Part shown: piece by piece, positions 1,501 through 14,615 of the stretch
Position numbering within the stretch: position 1 is the stretch's first letter
Layout of the letters: each line of letters begins with the position of its first letter
NCBI GenBank assembly: GCA_903836465.1
Contig: CAILRB010000072.1
Span: 1 to 38,995 of the forward strand
Reading direction: 5' to 3'
Source of the DNA: an uncultured Chlorobiaceae bacterium
Lineage (GTDB): Bacteria; Bacteroidota; Chlorobiia; Chlorobiales; Chlorobiaceae
DNA: 38,995 nucleotides
The notes under the pieces: model-generated
Told to the model about the DNA's origin: nothing
Database searches by the model: none
The model's input: the letters and a program-made list of their open reading frames with translations, nothing else
Translations under genes and position numbers: made by a program

Positions 1501-1562
1501 GTCTAACGAAAAGGTCACCTGCTGGCGGCGAAGCCGACAGTCAAGTGACGTGATTTTATGAG
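1501..1562 (-). repeat. attC-like site
   Basis: On the minus strand the site ends in a consensus GTTAGAC core (1501-1507). It is preceded by a long imperfect hairpin whose arms lie at 1514-1529 and 1533-1549, with a 3-base loop. The arms pair over about 16 positions with one bulged base and two mismatches, and a bulged (extrahelical) base is a typical attC feature. The outer end next to the stop codon of the ParE gene is degenerate. Six-base spacers flank the arms on both sides. It sits directly after the gene at 1556-1864, where an attC is expected. Confidence 0.55.
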
Positions 1563-1864
1563 ATGCAGTCTATTCTGTTTTTTAATAAGGCTGGACTTCT
1601 TTTACCATGAAGCACTGCCAGAACAAAAATTGCATCATTTTTGAATAGATAGATTATTTTATAAGGGAATTTTTTAATGACGCGCTTCCTTGCTTCTTTA
1701 TATTCTACTGGGGTGAGCTCAGGATTCCTTTGGATAAATTTAAGACCGGCCTCAATCTGAAGCAAGAAGTCATGTCCCAACCCCTGCCTTTTTCCTTCAT
1801 ACCAAAGGAATGATTCTCTTAAATCATTTTCAGCCTCAGGTCTGATTATGATTTGATGCTTCAT
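1556..1864 (-). CDS. ParE/RelE-family toxin
   Basis: A 102-aa protein with the family pattern IIIRPEAENDLRESFLWYE at the N-terminus, a helix with GLGHDFLLQIEAGL, then VIKKFPYKIIYLF and VLAVLHGKRSP at the C-terminus. This is the RelE/ParE toxin fold; ParE members poison DNA gyrase and RelE members cleave mRNA, and the sequence alone does not decide which. The start codon overlaps the stop of the upstream antitoxin gene by an ATGA overlap (1861-1864). The stop codon abuts the attC-like site at 1501-1562, so the pair looks like a single cassette. Confidence 0.85.
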   Translation of the reverse strand: MKHQIIIRPEAENDLRESFLWYEGKRQGLGHDFLLQIEAGLKFIQRNPELTPVEYKEARKRVIKKFPYKIIYLFKNDAIFVLAVLHGKRSPALLKNRIDCIS

Positions 1865-2082
1865 CGCTTAGATACTATTCTCTTATAAACATCTTCCCAC
1901 GGAGCACCTAATGTGGGGTTTCTGTGATATGCTTCCAAACGTTCATCAATTATTATTTTTTCTTCGTCCGATAACTGGACAGCTTCAGGTTCGTTAGATA
2001 TCGTATCCCAGATGTCTTCTACCAACTGAATTCTCTCCGGGACTGATAACTCAAGGGTATCCGTAGCGGTTATATGTTTCAT
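1861..2082 (-). CDS. Addiction module antitoxin (TIGR02574-type)
   Basis: A 73-aa protein with LSVPERIQLVEDIWDTIS near the N-terminus and the conserved region RLEAYHRNPTLGAPWEDV near the C-terminus, diagnostic of the putative addiction module component family that accompanies ParE/RelE toxins. An AGGAGG-like sequence precedes the ATG at 2080-2082 (minus strand AACAGGAGGTAATTGCC). Translationally coupled to the downstream toxin (ATGA overlap). It should bind and neutralise that toxin. Confidence 0.85.
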   Translation of the reverse strand: MKHITATDTLELSVPERIQLVEDIWDTISNEPEAVQLSDEEKIIIDERLEAYHRNPTLGAPWEDVYKRIVSKR

Positions 2083-3101: not shown

Positions 3102-3175
3102 GCCTAACGCCCAAGCTCAGGGTCCGCGCAGCGTCGGGTTGACCGTAGGGTTCTGTCACATTTCACGCGTTACGG
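3102..3175 (-). repeat. attC-like site
   Basis: The minus strand ends in a consensus GTTAGGC core (3102-3108). The opposite end, overlapping the last codons of the BrnA gene, reads CCGTAAC (3169-3175). The inside is GC-rich but I cannot draw a clean bulged hairpin. The core-proximal bases (GAGCTT next to the core, and GGACYCTGC beyond it) resemble those of the site at 5311-5370. Confidence 0.42.
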
Positions 3176-3462
3176 GAATGGCACGTTACGTACTCACGAA
3201 GCACACCATCCATTCGCGATTGCCAACCTTCACCGGTTGACTTGAAGTAGGCGACGACCTCGGGGCTATAACGCACAGACACAAGCAGCTTCTTGTTTTC
3301 AGACCTCGGACGACCACGCAGGGCGCGGATTGGCACCATCGCCTTCAGTTGCTTTGGCGTGAGTGGCTGCGCGTCAGGATCACTTTTAGCTGCCGCAGTA
3401 ATGGCCTTGTCCTCTTCCGCTGTGGGCATGAGGATAGTTGAACGCTTAGAGATTTTCGACAT
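3163..3462 (-). CDS. brnA: BrnA-family antitoxin
   Basis: A 99-aa protein with the C-terminal BrnA signature: KKLLVSVRYSPEVVAYFKST followed by GEGWQSRMDGVLREYV. This forms the ribbon-helix-helix DNA-binding domain. In the described Brucella BrnTA system, BrnA dimers bind two BrnT toxins and repress the operon. The gene overlaps the 3' end of brnT by 17 bases. This pair is noticeably richer in GC than the neighbouring TA genes, which suggests a separate origin and fits a captured cassette. The stop codon lies in the attC-like site at 3102-3175. Confidence 0.85.
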   Translation of the reverse strand: MSKISKRSTILMPTAEEDKAITAAAKSDPDAQPLTPKQLKAMVPIRALRGRPRSENKKLLVSVRYSPEVVAYFKSTGEGWQSRMDGVLREYVTCHSRNA

Positions 3463-3727
3463 AATTTTCGATATAGTGTTTCACCTCTCGACGATTGGCA
3501 CGGCGCAGGCTGATGACCCTTCGCACTTCGCCTCGGTCAACAAATGCCACGCAGTACAGGATTTCGGTTTGCGGAGCGAGCGCAATCATTCGCGACTCGC
3601 CGTACTCAAACCGTTCATCAACCCACACCAGTGCGGCTTCCCAGTCAAGGTCGCCTGCCATAGCCAGAGACACACCGTGCTTCGCCTGGTTTGCTGCGTC
3701 CTTGACGGGATCGAACTCGACTGTCAT
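3446..3727 (-). CDS. brnT: BrnT-family ribonuclease toxin
   Basis: A 93-aa protein with the BrnT pattern: FDPVKDAANQAKHGVSLAMA at the N-terminus, a central ESRMIALAP segment, and the C-terminal VRRVISLRRANRREVKHY. BrnT toxins have a RelE-like fold and inhibit translation by RNA cleavage. The gene precedes and overlaps brnA. An attC-like site (3758-3842) lies upstream, so brnT-brnA appears to be one cassette between two such sites. Confidence 0.87.
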   Translation of the reverse strand: MTVEFDPVKDAANQAKHGVSLAMAGDLDWEAALVWVDERFEYGESRMIALAPQTEILYCVAFVDRGEVRRVISLRRANRREVKHYIENYVENL

Positions 3728-4862: not shown

Positions 4863-4869
4863 ACCTAAC
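4863..4869 (-). other. Integron-type core site GTTAGGT (possible attI or cassette boundary)
   Basis: The minus strand reads GTTAGGT, matching GTTRRRY, 22 bases before the ATG of the 334-aa gene. About 30 bases upstream lies a related GTTTAGGC. No paired attC half is evident on the upstream side. Because an integrase remnant lies about 260 bases upstream, this could be the attI-like recombination point, but I cannot verify it. Confidence 0.4.
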
Positions 4870-4915
4870 AATAAATAGACTGACCCGCCTAAACTGCGGA
4901 TTTTTGAATTACAAC

Positions 4916-5016
4916 CCATATAAGACGCAAATTTCAAACTACTCGAAATACCGGTAATCGTTTTAATAAATAATAGTTAACCATTGCATTATGTTTTATT
5001 TTAGCGTCTTATATGG
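4916..5016 (+). repeat. 101-bp AT-rich segment bounded by perfect 13-bp inverted repeats
   Basis: CCATATAAGACGC at 4916-4928 is repeated in inverted form as GCGTCTTATATGG at 5004-5016. The match extends to 16 bp with one mismatch. The interior has no coding capacity. It lies in the roughly 290-base gene-free stretch between the 334-aa gene and the integrase remnant. It could be a miniature inverted-repeat element, a recombinase binding region or a large stem-loop. I do not see a flanking target-site duplication. Confidence 0.6.
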
Positions 5017-5084
5017 ATCGGCATAACAACGTTGCTTACAAGCCATCAACAGGACTTTTTACCCCATGGCCACCTTTGATCAAT

Positions 5085-5127: not shown

Positions 5128-5249
5128 TTACTTCACAAAGCACAGCTTCGAGGAATATGTCCTATAGCGATTCAAAACATGGGTATAAATCATCGAGGTG
5201 CTTACATCTTTATGACCCATTAATTCCTGAATAGTGCGGACCATAATTT
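5128..5249 (-). pseudogene. C-terminal remnant of an integron-type tyrosine recombinase (IntI-like)
   Basis: The frame reads [20 protein letters not shown] followed by VLNR, then diverges and stops at 5128-5130. It contains the GH of the LxGH motif (conserved H) and the catalytic Tyr of the tyrosine-recombinase C-terminus. The combination MIYTHVLNR after the GH box is typical of integron integrases, though some phage and Xer-type enzymes are similar. Everything upstream of about residue V(RTIQ), including the HxR box, is missing, and the tail after LNR is unrelated. The remnant lies on the same strand as the cassette genes. Integrons with this reversed integrase orientation are known in some lineages, to my recollection. 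It cannot be an active enzyme. Confidence 0.72.
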
Positions 5250-5310
5250 CACTTTCTTCAAACCCTTGAAATGCTGATTGGAATATCTTCTATCGCGCCC
5301 CGCAGGGTCC

Positions 5311-5370
5311 ACCTGACGCAAAGCTCAGCAGCGGAGGGTTAGCGGGGTGCGCTGGAGCGTTGCGTCAGGC
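5311..5370 (-). repeat. attC-like site with bulged inner arms
   Basis: The minus strand runs from GCCTGAC (5364-5370) to GTCAGGT (5311-5317), and these ends are complementary at 6 of 7 positions. The inner arms GCTC-CAGCG and CGCTGCTGAGC pair with two extra bases bulged on one side, the hallmark of attC hairpins. The core carries GTCAGG instead of GTTAGG. The site covers the last 11 codons of the antitoxin gene at 5339-5584 and lies just upstream of the integrase remnant. Confidence 0.68.
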
Positions 5371-5584
5371 GGGTTGAGGCTTCTGCGACCTCCAATAAAT
5401 AACGAAGAGCTTTATTGACGGCTTCATCGTTAGGAAATGCCTGTGCAACATCAGGCTCCAGGAAAACAACATTTGTTTCGTCTTTTATGCGATCTGCATA
5501 TTTGCCGCGTACAATTTCACCTAAATCTGACCTTTTATATTCTGGTCTCGCCTCATCTGACATATCAAAATTACCCTTCTTCAT
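5339..5584 (-). CDS. Probable antitoxin partner of BrnT-family toxin
   Basis: An 81-aa protein with the segments GEIVRGKYADRIKDETNVVF and LEPDVAQAFPNDEAVNKAL. This is the non-RHH antitoxin type commonly encoded after BrnT toxins, with the motif VRGKYAxR followed by LEPDVAxxFP. It overlaps the toxin gene by 14 bases, so translation is likely coupled. The final residues (RLTQRSSAPR) are encoded by the attC-like palindrome at 5311-5370. They probably represent a cassette-derived extension rather than part of the family fold. Confidence 0.75.
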   Translation of the reverse strand: MKKGNFDMSDEARPEYKRSDLGEIVRGKYADRIKDETNVVFLEPDVAQAFPNDEAVNKALRYLLEVAEASTRLTQRSSAPR

Positions 5585-5843
5585 AAATTTTCCTTTCAGT
5601 CTTTGTTGCTAATCGTGCAGATATGATGCGAATTGCATTTCCTCTTTCAGTATGTGATACCATAAGTAAGCGTCCTGACGAAGAAACGCCATAGGATATA
5701 AAACGCACCTCATCTATTGAATGGTCTGGATCATGAGCGGTTGCAGAAAATGGATCCCGCAATGAACTTGTAGCTTCTTCAAAGGAAACACCATGTTTAC
5801 GTTTGTTTGCAGCAGCTTTTTTTAAGTCCCACTCAAAGTGCAT
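5571..5843 (-). CDS. brnT: BrnT-family toxin
   Basis: A 90-aa protein with the BrnT pattern FEWDLKKAAANKRKHGVSFE, a central DEVRFISYGVSSSGRLLMV, and C-terminal IRIISARLATKTERKIYEEG. It is a predicted RelE-fold ribonuclease. It differs clearly from the other BrnT at 3446-3727, so the two were acquired separately. The antitoxin gene follows with a 14-base overlap. The 226 bases upstream (5844-6069) contain no recognisable gene and are AT-rich, so a promoter for the pair may lie there. Confidence 0.87.
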   Translation of the reverse strand: MHFEWDLKKAAANKRKHGVSFEEATSSLRDPFSATAHDPDHSIDEVRFISYGVSSSGRLLMVSHTERGNAIRIISARLATKTERKIYEEG

Positions 5844-6069
5844 AATAGAAACGAATAATCCTTTGCTACTTTCTGCGTATTGTTGAAGGATCAGATGAAC
5901 CAGATTTCAATTCTACTCCGGCAGTTTTGTAATGTATCTGTTCTTCTCACAAACAATATCTCTCTAAACTATAGCTAAATATTTTCAGATTGTCAATAAA
6001 GCGTAAAATATACAAAAAAAGAGATCAGAATAATCGGGCGGCCATAATCCCCTCAAACCAAAAACAGGC

Positions 6070-6279
6070 TTACGCAGTCTCCCTGTGAGGGATTTCCTGA
6101 TAAGAAAATTCCCACAAGCCAGCATTTTCTTTAGCATGCTCAATGGTCATACTGACAAGATTCCCCTTCTCATAAACATCAATCAAGATGTTTTCACTAA
6201 TCTCGCGAGTTTCAAACACCGGCTTGTCAAGTAATTCAACATAAGCGGTATCGGTATCCTCAAAATATTTCACCTTCAT
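6070..6279 (-). CDS. DUF2283 family protein
   Basis: A 69-aa protein with KYFEDTDTAYVELLDKPVFE and then ILIDVYEKGNLVSMTIEHAK. This is the classic DUF2283 pattern of short beta-hairpin proteins often encoded next to DUF4258 proteins and regarded as possible antitoxins. No DUF4258 gene is seen upstream. The segment 6280-6464 has a short open frame (with SGERITLVSQSII) just before this gene that could be the tail of a lost partner, but I cannot identify it. A GGAG precedes the start. Confidence 0.8.
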   Translation of the reverse strand: MKVKYFEDTDTAYVELLDKPVFETREISENILIDVYEKGNLVSMTIEHAKENAGLWEFSYQEIPHRETA

Positions 6280-6464
6280 GGCTTAGCTCTCCTTGTATGA
6301 TCGATTGGGAAACAAGAGTGATTCGTTCACCAGAGACATTCTTGCCAGGCTGTTCATTTTGTTGTGTGAGCTGCTTCTGCGTGCAATTTCAAGCCCAAGG
6401 AGCTTATTACTTTAAAAATAGCATCAAACCCTGAACTTGTTTCCCCGGAATACATCAATAAAGG

Positions 6465-6884
6465 TTACGGATGAAAAAATGGGTCGTTTTCAACTGCTTC
6501 CAAACACTGATCAAGCGATAAGTCTTGATAAATTTCTACCCACTCACCAGTATAGCGCATGAACGCCATATTGAACTGATTGTCCTGGATATATTTCAAC
6601 CGGGCAAACTTGGCTTCAAAGAAAGGGGTAAGAGCGTTGGGGCCAGGGACATTATATTTTGCACAAAAGTAAAAATAGTGTCGATACCATTTTGTATAGA
6701 TATCAGCAATGTAATTATGCTGAAATTCATCAGGAGCGGGCGGAGATTGAATGTTTTTTGGTTTCAAAACCTTTTCCACAAGTTCGTCCGCCTTTTGCTG
6801 GACAATTACTTTTGTATTCATTGACACTTTTGGAGCAGGTGGTTTAGGTGGTCTATAAACCCACATTCTCTGATTTTTAGCCAT
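6465..6884 (-). CDS. Unrecognised 139-aa protein (intact copy of a duplicated gene)
   Basis: The N-terminus is proline- and lysine-rich (VYRPPKPPAPKV). It is followed by KVIVQQKADELVEKVLKP and a domain with NYIADIYTKWYRHYFYFCAK, and an acidic C-terminus (YQDLSLDQCLEAVENDPFF). This could be a small nucleic-acid-associated protein, but I recognise no family. A truncated, frameshifted copy of the first half lies at 296-540. The gene is followed by CCGTAAC at its stop codon, reminiscent of an attC left end, but no matching right end is clear. The 184 bases after it contain no confident gene. Confidence 0.7.
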   Translation of the reverse strand: MAKNQRMWVYRPPKPPAPKVSMNTKVIVQQKADELVEKVLKPKNIQSPPAPDEFQHNYIADIYTKWYRHYFYFCAKYNVPGPNALTPFFEAKFARLKYIQDNQFNMAFMRYTGEWVEIYQDLSLDQCLEAVENDPFFHP

Positions 6885-6912
6885 AATGCCTGCTTTATGT
6901 TACAAAGAAAAG

Positions 6913-6982
6913 GCCCAGCGTGCAGCTTGTAGGGCGAGGAGGGAGCAAGTAAAGCTTGCTGGCGGAGCATCTGTTGTTAGAC
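6913..6982 (-). repeat. attC-like site
   Basis: The minus strand begins with a consensus GTCTAAC (6976-6982), 10 bases after the stop codon of the gene at 6993-7451. It contains a GCAAG/CTTGC hairpin in the centre and ends in GCTGGGC (6913-6919), one change from GTTGGGC. The position directly after a gene and the 70-base length fit an attC site. The inner arms pair only partly. Confidence 0.5.
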
Positions 6983-6992
6983 CTTGCACATT

Positions 6993-7451
6993 TCATTTTG
7001 GCTTTTTCGGTAGCTTGTCAATTAGCAGTTGGATATCTTGAACGCTCAGAATGGGGAAGATGTTCCTGTTTTCATCTCCTACTGAAAACTGTGCTTGCCA
7101 TATCCGCCCATTGTCCTGATCAACCAACATGAAATTCCACATATTGTTTGTCGGATAAAGAGTGAACCTTCCATTCTTGGCGTCTGATGCCAGTGGACTG
7201 GAATTGATCGGCAGCTTTATGCGACTTGAGTCTTTGTCAACAGTAAACTGTATTTGCCACAATCGTCCAGTCTGCGTGTCCAATTCCAAGAAATTCCACA
7301 TATTTTCTGTCTTGAATAGGCGGAAGCGCACGTCTAACCGCTGTGGAGGATCGGTTTCAAATTTGATCTTATCAGCAGCATGGGTCGGTGTGTTTAATGT
7401 CAACGAGATACAACAACCCACGAAAAATTTCAAAATAGCTGAGCATCTCAT
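6993..7451 (-). CDS. Exported protein with two tandem beta repeats, function unknown
   Basis: A 152-aa protein with a signal peptide: positive start, hydrophobic ILKFFVGCCISLTL, and likely cleavage after THA (about residue 25). The mature part carries two copies of a roughly 45-residue unit: RFRLFKTENMWNFLELD, then GRLWQIQFTV, and RFTLYPTNNMWNFMLVD, then GRIWQAQFSV. Such NMWNF...GRxWQ repeats suggest a small beta-propeller-like or beta-sandwich binding protein in the periplasm. The start overlaps the stop of the 468-aa gene (ATGA) and lies 18 bases after the core of the attC-like site at 7469-7526, so the gene occupies its own cassette between two such sites. Confidence 0.75.
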   Translation of the reverse strand: MRCSAILKFFVGCCISLTLNTPTHAADKIKFETDPPQRLDVRFRLFKTENMWNFLELDTQTGRLWQIQFTVDKDSSRIKLPINSSPLASDAKNGRFTLYPTNNMWNFMLVDQDNGRIWQAQFSVGDENRNIFPILSVQDIQLLIDKLPKKPK

Positions 7452-8854
7452 GTACGGTCTCCCATGTGGTCTAACGCTGAAATCAGGGGTGCGGCTTTTT
7501 GCGTCTCCTGTAATAATTTGTTAGGCGATTCCTGCCTCATCTGTAAAAGTATGTTTTTAATTAAGTTAATTGGACGCTGATGATGGTACATGGCTCTTAA
7601 GAAAATTCCGTCCATTATTAATTGTTCACTTTGTCCATCCCCTACAAAGATAGCCTTTCCTTTGTGTCTATATGGCTTAATGCCTGTTTGATCAGCCTTT
7701 GTTGCCTCTTTATTGGTTGCGAATCTGACCTCTAAGCCTGACTTCTCACATTGCCCCAAAAAGCCTTCGACATTGAATCCAATGCAAACGTGAATACGAC
7801 CAAATAATGTATCAAATTTCAGATCGTTACTAATTTGTAAATTGAAGACAGGAAATGCCAGTGGGTGGATCATTGAACTGAAGAGTGACCCCCGAGGGCA
7901 TTGTGGAGTCGCACCGCACTGATCAAACCAGCTATTAAAAAAAATATGTCCCGCTAATCGCATTTTTTCTTCTGAATAACACCCAATGAATATACTGTCA
8001 TCAATGGTATTGATTGCCCACCCTCTGTCTTTCGAAGCCAGCATGGTATCCTGAAGAACATCGTACCATGTCTCTGTATCTATCATTTCATCTGGTATAT
8101 ACACCATCATCTTTTTATCGGGATCTTCGGATACTCCTTTTGACATAACCTCTGCCACATGAGCCATGCGACCTATTTGCCGAGCCATGCGACCCATTTG
8201 CTTCATGGTCAATTGTCCTTCAGACTCGGCAAATAGGTGAAGAAATAGATCACATTTTGATTCTGAATAAAATTTAAGCGCGTCAGAAATTTCTTTATTC
8301 TTCTCTCCTTCTTTCACCTCGATAATGCCTTGTTGACCTATATTACTCATCGTGAGTAAGTCACCGACCTGAACAAACGATGTCAAATCGGATATCAGGG
8401 CGATGCTCCCTGGGTTGTCACTCATGTGGCTTTCTGCGGCAAAAACGACAGAATCAAAATTGCATTGGTCTATGTTTGGCTGGTCGTGACCCTTAAAAAA
8501 CCTCCTGGCATAGCAAAGCTGCATATTGATTAGTTGCCAGGCAATTGCATCGGCAATGCCTCTAAATAATACGTGGTGAGAAACGCTTATGGATTTTCCC
8601 GAGCGAAGATTGTCTATGATTATTGACTGAGCCTCTGACATCCCCGCATGAGAGGCCGTTAAGAATTTCTTTCTCGATTCAATATTGCCGGAAACATCTT
8701 CAAGACCAGTCATTTTGGGCCATACCGACCTGCTTCCAGCACATGATAATTCGAATAGATTTTTTGCCAAATCTTCTAGCCCATGGCTCAACGACATGAA
8801 TTGAAGCGTAGTAGCTGGATCGTATGTGTTTTTCTTTTTCTTCCTTTTTGGCAT
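7448..8854 (-). CDS. Unrecognised 468-aa protein with a possible PD-(D/E)XK nuclease motif
   Basis: The protein starts with a basic stretch (MPKRKKKKN). Residues 160-185 read FVQVGDLLTM, a gap, then GIIEVKEGEKN, giving D165 and E179-x-K181. This spacing and the hydrophobic strands around it resemble the core of PD-(D/E)XK nucleases. The rest is mixed alpha/beta with no other motif I know; GKAIFVGDGQSEQLIMDG is near the C-terminus. The last 25 or so codons run through the attC-like site 7469-7526, and the stop overlaps the next gene's start. The upstream end has a GTTAGAC core at 8868-8874, so the gene is cassette-bounded, although unusually long for a cassette. It lies 50 bases downstream of the large helicase-nuclease gene. 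A role in nucleic-acid restriction is a hypothesis. Confidence 0.65.
   Translation of the reverse strand: MPKRKKKKNTYDPATTLQFMSLSHGLEDLAKNLFELSCAGSRSVWPKMTGLEDVSGNIESRKKFLTASHAGMSEAQSIIIDNLRSGKSISVSHHVLFRGIADAIAWQLINMQLCYARRFFKGHDQPNIDQCNFDSVVFAAESHMSDNPGSIALISDLTSFVQVGDLLTMSNIGQQGIIEVKEGEKNKEISDALKFYSESKCDLFLHLFAESEGQLTMKQMGRMARQIGRMAHVAEVMSKGVSEDPDKKMMVYIPDEMIDTETWYDVLQDTMLASKDRGWAINTIDDSIFIGCYSEEKMRLAGHIFFNSWFDQCGATPQCPRGSLFSSMIHPLAFPVFNLQISNDLKFDTLFGRIHVCIGFNVEGFLGQCEKSGLEVRFATNKEATKADQTGIKPYRHKGKAIFVGDGQSEQLIMDGIFLRAMYHHQRPINLIKNILLQMRQESPNKLLQETQKAAPLISALDHMGDRT
7469..7526 (-). repeat. attC-like site with both consensus ends
   Basis: The minus strand runs from GCCTAAC (7520-7526) to GTTAGAC (7469-7475), complementary at 6 of 7 positions and both matching the consensus. 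The 58-base length is typical of short attC sites. Inner arms CAGGAGACGC and GCCGCACCCCTG pair imperfectly around an A-rich loop, with mismatched or bulged bases. The site lies inside the 3' coding end of the 468-aa gene and just before the next gene. It is the clearest attC candidate in the window. Confidence 0.7.
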
Positions 8855-8867
8855 TATTAACTCTACC

Positions 8868-8909
8868 GTCTAACTAAATCATCGTGGTGCAAATGGGCTT
8901 ACCTCAGAC
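8868..8909 (-). repeat. attC-like boundary, degenerate
   Basis: The minus strand ends in a consensus GTTAGAC (8868-8874), 14 bases before the start codon of the 468-aa gene. The other end, GTCTGAG (8903-8909), includes the stop codon of the helicase gene and matches GTCTAAC at 5 of 7 positions. At 42 bases and without clear inner arms it is probably a decayed site or only a boundary. Confidence 0.38.
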
Positions 8910-11900
8910 ATACGGATATGCCTTATCCAAAATATCCAACAGTGAGGTACTGACCTGAGTTGTCAGTCTCCGAAGATCGTAATACTCCAGAATAGCGCGC
9001 AGATGTTCATCTGAACCATGCTTCAAGCTATCAACTGACTCCAATTTTTTTGCCACTGTCAGAAGCTCACTGGGAGGTATCTCAGAAAAGTCCCTCGGGC
9101 CTCTGCTGCGAACCAATACAGCTGTGCTGCCTTTCGGGCGGACAATGGTGTACATCAAGCCACCCTTTCCAAGCTCATCTTCCTTGATAACATGTCCATC
9201 ATTGATCAAGTATTGTAACGCTTTGTTCATGGTTTTACGCAACTCCCCGCCCATGCGCTGTATTCCGCAACCGTGTAAATAAATATCATAGGCGCGTTTG
9301 GCGAGCATGGGCGCTTCAGCTTCGATAATTCGCAACAGTCCTTCAGCCACTTGTGCCGTACCAACCTCAATGCTGCGAGGATCTACGCTTATTGATCCTC
9401 GGTACTCAACATAGGTTGACCGACCAACCTTCTCATCAGACTGCCTAATTTCAAGTTCAAGAATCTCTTGCTGCTTACTACCGTCATCGGAACTACCAAT
9501 GATTTCAACTTCATCATCCATATCGCTCGCTATTTCGAGCTGATCTTCAGAAAGGATTTCCCTACCAACAACGTCATACTCTTCATCAAATTCTATTCCT
9601 GTAGGCGGATCTTCACATGTAACAAACTCACAAGGCATATCATTTAATGCCCCCAGTTCGTTAGTCAGTACATTTTCAAAAGCACTACCATTTTCTGCTG
9701 CACTGAAATTAACCGGACTCGGCGGTGCCGCACCAGCAGAATCAACTCCGCCGGGATGGATCCCTAACCTGTCGAGTTCACTCCAAACTGGCTGCATAGC
9801 GGTTTCCGGTTCCCGATAAAAATGGGCACCACGAATGCGGATAAATTGCCAGCCAGCCCGTTCGAGGTCACGCTGCCGCGCCATATCGTGTTCATAGCGA
9901 TCTGGGCCATGCCAACGATCTCCATCACACTCCACAGCAAGCCTACCCTGCATTCCTTCAACCACCAAATCAATCCTGTAACGATGGTTTGTAGGATCAC
10001 CAATACAAACCTGCGTTCTGACATAGAATCCACGATCGCAAATGCGCTGATACACTGCCCGTTCAAATTCAGAGTCAAACCGTTGTTCATTTTCGGCGGA
10101 AGATTCCCGCTTTGGCTCCAGCATGTATTTCAGCAAGCGGTAACGCATACAAAGATCACTCAGCACGTCCAGCGTTGCAGTATGGAATAACCACAACTGA
10201 TCTTGGGCACGGCTGACTGCTACGTTAAATCGTTGACGGGCTGAATCTGTCGTCAGGGCACCGATACGTGTTTCTCCAGGTGCTGCCACCATACTCAGAA
10301 AAATAATATGTCGCTCGTCGCCCTGAAACGCATAAGCATCACCACAGATCAACTGGCGCTCCTCAATCACTTCAGGCTCCAATTGTTCCAACAACTTTTT
10401 CTCTATCAGCTTTGCTTGCGCTTCTCCCTGTAAACTGATGACACCCATCGTTTTTCCCTTGTAGCGAGGATCTGAAATACAACCTGCAATCTGAGCGACA
10501 ATCGCATCCGCTTCTGGAATATTCTGGGCATACTGACTACTCCCTATCCGATAGCCGTCAGCAACATGCCTGAGCACCAATGGCTGCAAACGGTTTGCTG
10601 GGTAGGCTCTTAGTGGATCCAAAGGGGTACCGTTGCTGGCATAACAGAGGTCATTAGAAAACTGGATAATCTCCGGCATGCAACGAAAATGCTCGCGCAA
10701 CACCACATTTTGGCTAAAACGAATTTTGGCATTGCCATACAAACTACTCTGTGGAGACAGTGCGTGACGGTGTGGTATTCCTTCCAGATAATGTTCCTGT
10801 AATCCCGCTATCGCCTCATCAGCAATACCAATGCCATAGGGGCTAATCTGCTGATCGTCACCAACCACCACCATTTTTTTTGCGATATAGAATAGAAAAA
10901 GGCTTTCAATACCGAGCTGGCTGGCCTCATCAACAATAACCATGTCATATCGCCCTGGCGCTGGATCAATCATTTCCGCCACCAGATAACGAGGCATAAT
11001 CCAAATAGGAATGGCATCGCGACATGCATCCATGTACTGGCGAGCCTCTTGGCGCAACCGTGCCATTTTGGCCGACTTGCCAGTTCCCTTGCCTATAGCT
11101 TTGACAGCTTCACGCCAACTTTTAAGCGCTGCTGATTCCCGTTGCGAAAGGCGTTTGAAAAAATGCGTCCAGGCACGAAGCGCTGCTGACTCGGCCACTA
11201 AACGGCCAATCATGGCATCTATATCATGACGTCTCCGCCACAATTTTTGCTGATATGAAAAATCAGTACGCTTTTCGAGCCAGTTATCCGCTATTGCCCA
11301 ATGCCAAGCATTTTCCCAGAAGGAAAAACGCTGATGCCAGTCAGATTTTTTTAGGCTTCCTGCAATATCTGAAACCAAGTAAGGCACTTGAGCATTAAGG
11401 CGGTTTTCAATATCGGCGCGGTGCAACTGTTCTGAACGGATTTCTTCAATTGCAACCAGATCAGCATAATATCGGCTATAGTCGCAAATATTTCTCTCCT
11501 CCACTGCGGACACTATCTTCGCTGCTAGCGGATGGGCGTCGTGCAACTCGACGATTGGATTCACCGCCGCAGCACAACTATTCACTGCATCACATGCGGT
11601 GTGATAGTTGGCTTCTTTTTCAGCGACATCAAGCAGTTCAATCCATAGCGTAATCTCACCACTCAACCAGTCCGGTTCGGGCACTGCCGTGGAGAAAGAA
11701 GATAAGGTGCGGCCAGCCTTTAGGCAATCCTCGGCATAAGCCACACAGCGCTCAAGATCTGCTCGCTGTTCTTGCAAGTCAGCCAACAGTATGCGACGAT
11801 TTCCCGCAACAGGTTGTGCGCCCACATCTGACCATATCGATACCAACTCTTCAAACACAAAATCAAGTGACAGCTTATCACATACAGCCTGCAACTGCCC

Positions 11901-14177
11901 TATAGTTGCCGCTCCCACGCCGTCTACCAATACTTCATCTTTGAGGTAGGTTTTGCCTTTCAACTCAGCCGGGGTAAACATGCCCATACGCTTCCATGCC
12001 CCCCCTTCATTCAGAAACTTAATAGCCGCCAAGGCATCGGTGCGTACTTTCCTGCGATCCTGATTTTCAGGCAGGCTGACAGCATATTTGCCAAGCCGAG
12101 AGATCAAGTCCTCAGCCTCGGTTAAAAGCTCCTGATTACGGGTTAACACGGTGTCCCATCGGACGTGTTTGCCAGCAATCAACTCACTCAAGGCGACCGT
12201 AGACCAGCCACTGGTAATACGTATCACGGCGAGACGTTGCTCTTCCAGCTTGCGCAGGGCTTGGCCCATCGCGATGCGTTGCTCAGTTGTTAGAGCATGA
12301 ACAGCGCCATAGACCCGATGTTTGAGGAATACTTCCAGTTGCTGCAACCCCACTATAGCAGCAGATTCATTTGATACCGCTGTAGCAAATGTTTGCGGGG
12401 CCACCAGTTTGCTACTGGCAGGTAGCTTTAAACGGGCATCCGCAATCTGAGCCTCTTTATAACGGCCATAAATCTCCAACCATATCAGCATTTCCTTACT
12501 GCTGACCGGTGGATGAGAAGGGGCATCGTAAGGTAGCTTCAACCATTCATATTCTACCCGTTCGCGTGCCACTTGCGCAGCAATCATAGATGCGGTGCCA
12601 TGATAGGTGCCATCAGCAATCTGGTAGGGACATGTTTCTTCTTCGCGCAGACTGCGAATTTCGCTATCGATTGCAGCGAGCTTACTACGGTTGGTATCCA
12701 ACTCGGCATCAATTTCGACAATGCGCGGCTCATAGGCCCCCGGTGTATAAGCAGCTTGCCGGGTTGTAATCCCCTGAACCGCCATATTCAATTCCGCAAA
12801 GGCATCACCACCTTGCCCCAGCAAACTGACACATAAAGGTTGAATTTCTTTCGGCAGCTTATCTTTGAGCACCTGCAAGGCACGGCCTGTTTCCGCTGTG
12901 ATTAATACTCGCTTGTCGGTGGCCAGCAGATGGCAAATCAGGTTAGCAATGGTATGGCTTTTCCCTGTACCAGGCGGGCCCTGCACTAACACACCGCGCT
13001 GGCGGTCAATCGCCTCGACAATGCGACGCTGTTCCTTGTTTGCCAGCAGTGGAAAGTAGATTTGCTGCTGACCATCTTCATGGGTGCTTGATTGCTGCAC
13101 CTCACCATTTTCGGTTCGTCCATCATAATACTGATCGTCAACATCATCAATCAGACCACCCCAGCCCTGCGGCACCTCGGCAGACTCACTGCCAAGCTGA
13201 TTAATAATGGCATCATAAATACGCACCATGCCAGACTGTGTGCGCTTGCGCAGGATCAGCGCCGGAGCAAAACTTACCACAGGCATTTTCGTATCAGCGC
13301 CATGGTTACGCAAATCCGCAGAATAGAGCGTATCCGCATTCAATGAACCTGCCCAGTGTTTCAGCGCAACTTGCATCAGAGATTTATCCCAGATATCATC
13401 ACCAAGGTAATCAAGCTGCATTTGCACCGCCTGATACTGGCCATGATCCGGGCGTAGTTCGGCCTCCAGCATATCATCTTCAATACGCAGGCGAGCACCA
13501 TCCCCCGGCGGCTCCAGCCGCATAACCCCTTTACCAGGCTCAAACACCAGTTCCGCGCGCGCTACCAACATATGGCGTCGAATATGGCCCCCCACCGGCG
13601 CCCGCCAGTCGAGCAAGCCTATGCCCAGCACCAATTCCAGCAATTCCCCTTGCTTACGCAGTTGGGTATGCAAGGCGAAAAGCCGGGCGTACAAGTCCTG
13701 AATTTTCTGACGACGCCGGTATTCATCCGACCACCCCTGCCAGCGCAGACGATAGCGGTCATAGGCCGCCTGGACCTCGGGGAAGTCACTTAACGACGCA
13801 TCAATCAACGGTGCCGATTCTCCCTCTGCAAGTTCTGCCGCTTCATCAGGAAGCCGGATGCTGGTTTTAAGCAAGGGAATCTGCTCGCTGGCACGATTCA
13901 GCGCTTGTTCATCAATCCACGGCAGAATGTTTTCTTGAACCGCTGGCATGGCATCGAATTGCTGCTTTTTGACTTCCAGCCAGGGGTCACCCAGTTCGCA
14001 GCCATCCACCCAAGCCGGGCTGAAGCAATCCTTTTCCTGCGGCATATCGCCAAACCACAGTACCATATCGTACTTCGTGACATCGCGCACAGTGGTAGTG
14101 CGCAAGCCGACAAATTCCTTGAGGTACTGCGCTAACCGCAGTGGCGCATTGGCAGTTTGGATATCAGGCATATTCAC
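8904..14177 (-). CDS. Large SF1 (AAA_11/AAA_12) helicase with C-terminal DUF559/MTES_1575-type nuclease
   Basis: A 1757-aa protein. Walker A GPPGTGKSHT is near residues 399-408 and the DEAS Walker B box (MVIVDEASQ) near 1078-1086. Then come VVVGDDQQISP near 1105, and the C-terminal RecA-like motifs with RQRFNVAVSRAQDQLWLF near 1310-1325. A nuclease domain follows at about 1375-1460: RIDLVV, then LAVECDGDRWHG, then WQFIRIRGAHFYR. These are the D...ExD-type core of Vsr/DUF559/MTES_1575 endonucleases. Residues 1595-1690 resemble the DUF3320 winged-helix region. The 700-residue insert between Walker A and DEAS is long and helical. The family is frequent in defence-type islands, and cleavage of foreign nucleic acid is inferred. 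The start ATG at 14177 has AAAGGTG upstream. The gene appears complete. Confidence 0.85.
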   Translation of the reverse strand: MNMPDIQTANAPLRLAQYLKEFVGLRTTTVRDVTKYDMVLWFGDMPQEKDCFSPAWVDGCELGDPWLEVKKQQFDAMPAVQENILPWIDEQALNRASEQIPLLKTSIRLPDEAAELAEGESAPLIDASLSDFPEVQAAYDRYRLRWQGWSDEYRRRQKIQDLYARLFALHTQLRKQGELLELVLGIGLLDWRAPVGGHIRRHMLVARAELVFEPGKGVMRLEPPGDGARLRIEDDMLEAELRPDHGQYQAVQMQLDYLGDDIWDKSLMQVALKHWAGSLNADTLYSADLRNHGADTKMPVVSFAPALILRKRTQSGMVRIYDAIINQLGSESAEVPQGWGGLIDDVDDQYYDGRTENGEVQQSSTHEDGQQQIYFPLLANKEQRRIVEAIDRQRGVLVQGPPGTGKSHTIANLICHLLATDKRVLITAETGRALQVLKDKLPKEIQPLCVSLLGQGGDAFAELNMAVQGITTRQAAYTPGAYEPRIVEIDAELDTNRSKLAAIDSEIRSLREEETCPYQIADGTYHGTASMIAAQVARERVEYEWLKLPYDAPSHPPVSSKEMLIWLEIYGRYKEAQIADARLKLPASSKLVAPQTFATAVSNESAAIVGLQQLEVFLKHRVYGAVHALTTEQRIAMGQALRKLEEQRLAVIRITSGWSTVALSELIAGKHVRWDTVLTRNQELLTEAEDLISRLGKYAVSLPENQDRRKVRTDALAAIKFLNEGGAWKRMGMFTPAELKGKTYLKDEVLVDGVGAATIGQLQAVCDKLSLDFVFEELVSIWSDVGAQPVAGNRRILLADLQEQRADLERCVAYAEDCLKAGRTLSSFSTAVPEPDWLSGEITLWIELLDVAEKEANYHTACDAVNSCAAAVNPIVELHDAHPLAAKIVSAVEERNICDYSRYYADLVAIEEIRSEQLHRADIENRLNAQVPYLVSDIAGSLKKSDWHQRFSFWENAWHWAIADNWLEKRTDFSYQQKLWRRRHDIDAMIGRLVAESAALRAWTHFFKRLSQRESAALKSWREAVKAIGKGTGKSAKMARLRQEARQYMDACRDAIPIWIMPRYLVAEMIDPAPGRYDMVIVDEASQLGIESLFLFYIAKKMVVVGDDQQISPYGIGIADEAIAGLQEHYLEGIPHRHALSPQSSLYGNAKIRFSQNVVLREHFRCMPEIIQFSNDLCYASNGTPLDPLRAYPANRLQPLVLRHVADGYRIGSSQYAQNIPEADAIVAQIAGCISDPRYKGKTMGVISLQGEAQAKLIEKKLLEQLEPEVIEERQLICGDAYAFQGDERHIIFLSMVAAPGETRIGALTTDSARQRFNVAVSRAQDQLWLFHTATLDVLSDLCMRYRLLKYMLEPKRESSAENEQRFDSEFERAVYQRICDRGFYVRTQVCIGDPTNHRYRIDLVVEGMQGRLAVECDGDRWHGPDRYEHDMARQRDLERAGWQFIRIRGAHFYREPETAMQPVWSELDRLGIHPGGVDSAGAAPPSPVNFSAAENGSAFENVLTNELGALNDMPCEFVTCEDPPTGIEFDEEYDVVGREILSEDQLEIASDMDDEVEIIGSSDDGSKQQEILELEIRQSDEKVGRSTYVEYRGSISVDPRSIEVGTAQVAEGLLRIIEAEAPMLAKRAYDIYLHGCGIQRMGGELRKTMNKALQYLINDGHVIKEDELGKGGLMYTIVRPKGSTAVLVRSRGPRDFSEIPPSELLTVAKKLESVDSLKHGSDEHLRAILEYYDLRRLTTQVSTSLLDILDKAYPYV

Positions 14178-14615
14178 CTTTGAGCTCTATTTCTCTTGTA
14201 TTTTTTCTTCGTTGAATGTAATGAGTGAAAGTGAAATTCAAATACTCACCTTTTGAATTAGTAAACCTTCAGTATAGTACAGCGCTTCTTCACCGGTTTT
14301 CGAATTCACCCGTTGGTGCTCCTGAGGAAATACCCACAGCCATCCCAAACCACAACCTCGTAAAGTATAGCAAAATACTCCAAGAGCATAAATAAAACAG
14401 CAAAAACAAGATCAGCATGTCAGACATGAACCTTTTCAAGATGAAACACCCACAACCAGAAGAAAACCGTAGCACATAAAACGATGAATTACGACTTTTG
14501 AAGAATTCTTTTGTTTAAACATGATGGACACTGATCCCCCCGACTCCAAAAAAACAGATAAAATTTCAACTTTAGTAATATCTTCAACAGCATAACAAAC
14601 CCTTACCAAGCCACT
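14178..14615. other. Gene-poor intergenic stretch
   Basis: The 438 bases between the divergent helicase and serB genes are AT-rich and should hold both promoters. I see no convincing gene, RNA or terminator. A 61-codon minus-strand frame (14290-14475) encodes a hydrophobic peptide, but it has no supporting feature. This stretch marks the change from accessory to conserved DNA; no direct repeat or tRNA gene is present at the border. Confidence 0.6.

Follow-up and report, generated by a model that had tools for sequence, protein, structure and literature searches.

The 468-residue gene and its setting beside serB

The window, which is the whole 38,995-nucleotide stretch of DNA analysed here, derives from an uncultured Chlorobiaceae bacterium. 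It carries an insertion adjacent to serB that holds a gene for a 468-residue (468-aa) protein and a helicase gene (Table 1). In the related genome G003 (locus L107), the distance between a repeat element and the serB block is about 280 bp, versus 9.3 kb in the window. The serB, alaS, and 2-oxoacid oxidoreductase genes are syntenic among relatives, and the flank upstream of serB is different in each relative compared.

Table 1. Positions of the features in the window and the basis on which each was assigned.
Feature	Position	Strand	Basis
9.3-kb insertion beside serB: 468-aa gene, helicase, BrnT/BrnA-like pair	5239..14560		blastn, window vs L107
468-aa ORF, unnamed family of PD-(D/E)XK-like proteins	7448..8854	-	ORF call, homologues, alignments, model
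C-terminal mixed alpha/beta part, residues 241-441, without recognised fold	7532..8134	-	both models, structure searches
Putative catalytic core, residues 133-199, predicted helix-strand-strand-strand-helix	8258..8458	-	DSSP of both AlphaFold2 models, invariant cluster
E179-V180-K181 codons, ExK at end of predicted strand 3; E and K invariant	8312..8320	-	alignment, model
D165 codon, GD motif at start of predicted strand 2, invariant	8360..8362	-	alignment, model
D156 codon, further invariant acidic residue ahead of GD motif	8387..8389	-	alignment
N-terminal helical part, residues 13-119	8498..8818	-	model; weak structural matches
SF1 helicase with MTES_1575 (Vsr-like) REase domain, 1757 aa, probably a separate defence gene	8904..14177	-	family scans; relatives without the 468-aa gene

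The repeat element (window 4864-5083 and 5171-5238) recurs upstream of serB in G003 (L107), G004 (L048), and G043 (L110), the last with a partial second copy further off. It has no match in Rfam, and Rfam and tRNA scans of the insertion edge revealed no RNA. Three toxin–antitoxin-like pairs, one ParE/ParD-like and two BrnT/BrnA-like, are discernible by eye in the variable region left of serB (window 1556-2082, 3163-3727, and 5339-5843).

A second member of the family from the genus of the window is a homologue with 48% identity in G004. There the gene is found on the side of serB that it also occupies in the window, after a small membrane protein, and its position relative to the repeat element differs from that in the window, which suggests that the two copies were acquired separately.

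The ORF is real, as originally predicted, and is read from the minus strand. It has the same orientation as the helicase ORF, whose stop codon precedes its start by 49 bp, close to the 50 bases first given. No terminator-like site was found between the two. At its other end, the stop codon overlaps by 4 bp (ATGA) the start of an ORF on the same strand for a secreted-looking protein of 152 aa with two imperfect repeats (window 6993-7451). This small ORF was rejected as a partner, since two genomes that lack the 468-aa gene contain relatives of it.

The motif and the predicted core

The stretch GDLL...IIEVKEG of the window protein contains D165, E179, and K181, the residues that had led to the proposal of a PD-(D/E)XK nuclease. 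We aligned the protein with 25 diverse homologues, with identities to it down to about 20%, and observe 15 columns that are invariant in all. Seven of these (D156, G164, D165, E179, K181, G183, and N186) fall within one 31-residue stretch, a clustering obtained by random placement in 214 of 200,000 trials. Since this stretch is unvarying across such diverse homologues, the motif represents more than a chance resemblance. D165, E179, and K181 are moreover intact in all distinct homologues that cover the region.

The remainder of the protein had been said to match nothing known, and we likewise find no credible model for the window protein in Pfam, PADLOC, NCBIfam, or PHROGs. The 25 sampled homologues have none in Pfam, PADLOC, or PHROGs, and a profile search of the PDB sequences returned nothing.

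Proteins of the PD-(D/E)XK superfamily carry the aspartate at the start of strand 2 and the ExK motif at the end of strand 3. An AlphaFold2 model of the full protein, built on the homologue alignment (mean pLDDT 86.5, pTM 0.87), places the motif within the same arrangement. DSSP assigns a helix at residues 133-146, strands at 151-154, 166-169, and 175-178, and a second helix at 184-199, which puts D165 directly before strand 2 and E179-x-K181 at the end of strand 3. A second model, of residues 121-440, gave the same core order with a lower pTM (0.61).

Foldseek returned no significant match for the full model or the domain model against the PDB, nor for the full model against viral models. In a second look, the Hjc resolvase (Z 3.7, 68 residues, 2.5 Å) and EcoRI (Z 3.0, 55 residues) aligned on the core, both as weak matches that were tied with unrelated chains.

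The family resembles EcoRI, Hjc, and the rest of the superfamily in its GD...ExK motif and in the predicted location of these residues at the expected strand ends. It differs from them in giving no profile match to any superfamily member in Pfam and in the large regions that flank its core on the N- and C-terminal sides, in which no fold was recognised. The invariance of the motif and the order of the modelled elements support the proposed nuclease-like core, which we consider very likely; in the absence of a significant structural match it is not proven.

The helicase neighbour

The helicase resembles the PADLOC candidate PDC-S37, Hhe, and NCBIfam ProA, remaining below the curated NCBIfam cut-offs. 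Its adjacency to the 468-aa gene had raised the possibility of a two-gene restriction or defence system. In such a system, the helicase would sense or unwind phage DNA and the 468-aa protein would act as the effector nuclease. The shared strand, the short gap, and the lack of a detected terminator-like site are compatible with such a pairing, and helicase–nuclease pairs have a precedent in Hachiman (HamAB; PMC12278908). The window resembles Hachiman in that a helicase gene adjoins a nuclease-like gene; unlike Hachiman, it has no HamA or other credible PADLOC match, and the association between its two genes is not conserved.

We examined 51 homologue loci, 828 kb in all and some of them overlapping or near-identical, and at an E-value of 1e-5 found no helicase relative encoded in any. 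Conversely, helicases with 80% (G015) and 36% (G085) identity occur without the 468-aa gene. The helicase also has a nuclease domain of its own, and the GC content of the two genes differs (41.9% for the 468-aa gene versus 50.3% for the helicase). Given the lack of co-occurrence in either direction and the difference in GC content, the helicase and the 468-aa gene look like two cargo genes in one slot, and the co-occurrence expected of a two-gene system fails in the homologues. Homologues that never neighbour the helicase had been named beforehand as a finding that would refute the proposal, and this was the outcome in the loci examined. In G015, a different nuclease-like ORF of 108 aa (HNH-like, PtuB-like; L069:12838-13164) lies 19 bp after the helicase, a point in favour of the pairing; the helicase may take changing nuclease neighbours. 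Overall, we regard a Hachiman-like system of helicase and 468-aa protein as quite improbable.

An identical helicase is present in G043, on a contig that ends 44 bp past the helicase, short of the position of the 468-aa gene. This case was set aside as evidence because the contig seems to be a stray one from the same strain. Over 5884 bp, contig L050 (G043:C34) shares 99.9% identity with the window, in a genome whose own serB is only 89% identical; L050 is probably mis-binned.

Homologues in prophages and defence loci

The family is found in Chlorobiota, in gamma- and betaproteobacteria, and in their prophages. A tblastn search identified homologues in 13 plasmid records, a scan of GTDB contigs with the alignment gave 11 relatives, and scans of IMG/VR gave 24, plus one later. 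Scanning genome contigs with the single window sequence gave no relative, and a collection of phage records contained no match to the Klebsiella homologue. The family is rare and patchy: homologues occur in 2 of 150 relatives, in 1 of 394 genomes of the Erwinia order, and in 3 of 398 genomes of the Pseudomonas family. One allele is present in 66 E. coli genomes and another in 18. The gene is under purifying selection, with a dN of 0.043 against a dS of 0.182.

Often the homologue is a solo gene of a P2-like or Mu-like prophage, in one of several positions; the solo copy of an E. coli P2 prophage has the accession WP_001107526. One solo homologue (L041) lies between gpV and gpS, which is the fun locus of P2. 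Two others adjoin a portal gene (L090) and a Toprim replication gene (L021), a location corresponding to the P2 old/tin locus. In E. coli, a copy sits between ogr and gpD. L036, L040, and L043 come immediately after int, and L022 is flanked by head genes of a Mu-like phage. Four solo phage copies (L020, L021, L022, and L090) fall within the window protein's own clade in the tree.

Passages from two studies describe the old/tin and fun sites of P2 as defence hotspots (Rousset et al., Vassallo et al.; PMC9122126, PMC9519451). The present family was not found in those passages. It shares with the exclusion genes old, tin, and fun, and with other P2-hotspot systems, its prophage positions and its organisation as solo cargo; unlike these systems, it has no credible PADLOC match.

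Other homologues neighbour defence genes. AbiH precedes the gene in Klebsiella plasmids and in a lambdoid prophage of E. coli, as do PD-T4-5-like Abi_2 genes in Pantoea and Erwinia. Some copies follow a DUF2971 gene and one precedes such a gene; one adjoins Lamassu genes together with a NOV_C nuclease-like gene, and another has a Schlafen AlbA gene after it. This genomic context supports a role in defence.

A Pseudomonas-family cluster (L086:3178-10953) comprises Lamassu-like LmuA and LmuB, a NOV_C protein, and a homologue, and it also holds a nucleotidyltransferase fused to a DpnII-MboI REase domain.

The E. coli AbiH cassette with its homologue (WP_000982358; L047:7003-9392) is situated in the lambdoid prophage near hokD. 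Both genes occur together in 65 of 5426 E. coli genomes, and about 50 others keep part of AbiH only. In the sampled genomes of the latter kind, the match is limited to the 5' part of AbiH and the homologue is missing altogether; one locus that was inspected is interrupted by IS1 and IS3.

These associations allow a different reading, in which the 468-aa protein would assist or regulate abortive-infection effectors (AbiH, PD-T4-5/AbiD), perhaps as their sensor or an antitoxin-like partner. Its ExK site would then perhaps serve binding or processing, and solo copies may act on effectors resident in the host. The position of the gene after AbiH or PD-T4-5-like genes, the joint presence of both genes in E. 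coli, and the absence of any part of the homologue from the sampled genomes with truncated AbiH are in line with this. In the tree, the AbiH and PD-T4-5 copies form one supported clade, in which every row has an Abi effector ahead of the gene, which may therefore need a partner there. Solo prophage copies surround this clade in the tree, however, and many copies lack an adjacent effector. The fully conserved catalytic triad would also suggest an enzymatic function in all copies. We consider an accessory role of this kind rather unlikely.

A prophage gene might instead serve another purpose, such as counter-defence, lysogenic conversion, or DNA recombination, with a PD-(D/E)XK-like fold that does not attack phages. 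Counter-defence genes and unrelated cargo may also sit in prophage hotspots. The occurrence of the family at several positions in many P2-like and Mu-like prophages agrees with this, as does the weak structural match to Hjc, a recombination resolvase. Exclusion genes are, however, known from two of the prophage positions, and defence better fits those copies on chromosomes and plasmids that adjoin Lamassu, AbiH, PD-T4-5, and DUF2971 genes. We give such a role very little weight.

A methyltransferase was noted neither beside the gene in the window nor directly beside the homologues, and a type I RM-like set near one homologue (L009) is on the opposite strand; the family does not show the pairing of a nuclease with its cognate methyltransferase that marks restriction–modification. 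Its solo genes, their variable prophage and hotspot positions, and their patchy spread are those of accessory (moron-type) prophage cargo.

On balance, we favour with some confidence the interpretation of the 468-aa protein as a mobile, self-sufficient phage-exclusion nuclease of the PD-(D/E)XK type. It would be a stand-alone, metal-dependent enzyme, carried as cargo by prophages, plasmids, and genomic islands and stopping other phages. D165, E179, and K181 would cut nucleic acid, either DNA or RNA, and recognition of the target or of a signal of infection is probably the task of the helical N-terminal part and the mixed C-terminal part. Because no methyltransferase was noted directly beside the homologues, self DNA is probably spared in another way, with the enzyme either waiting for infection or recognising a phage-specific substrate. 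The adjacency to the helicase would then reflect the arrival of both genes in one defence slot. The invariance of D156, D165, E179, and K181, the predicted core, the weak core matches to Hjc and EcoRI, the solo prophage copies, some of them in the window protein's own clade, the neighbouring defence genes, the patchy spread, and the purifying selection all count for this interpretation. Against it count the lack of a significant Foldseek match, the tie of the weak core matches with unrelated chains, the other roles that a gene in a prophage hotspot can have, and the clade in which an Abi effector always precedes the gene.

Homologue protein accessions that we tried are named in the main text of no paper found. 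The DefensePredictor study of 2026 (PMC13092281) validated 13 PD-(D/E)XK systems in E. coli, which the family resembles in that they are previously uncharacterised proteins of this type, also from E. coli, whose additional domains are unusual. A prior description of the family, for example among these systems, is possible.

The family recurs across mobile elements and yet lies outside every curated model searched, and a model of its own would fill an annotation gap. The copies in E. coli prophages make stand-alone defence testable in the laboratory. More speculatively, and with only a slim chance of being right in full, the family may represent undescribed, self-sufficient PD-(D/E)XK nucleases that temperate phages carry and that infection activates, with one branch having joined AbiH and PD-T4-5 as a shared sensor or licensing module. 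The mechanism of AbiH is, to our knowledge, still open; if it is true that the Abi-paired branch shares one module among unrelated effectors, AbiH becomes directly testable.
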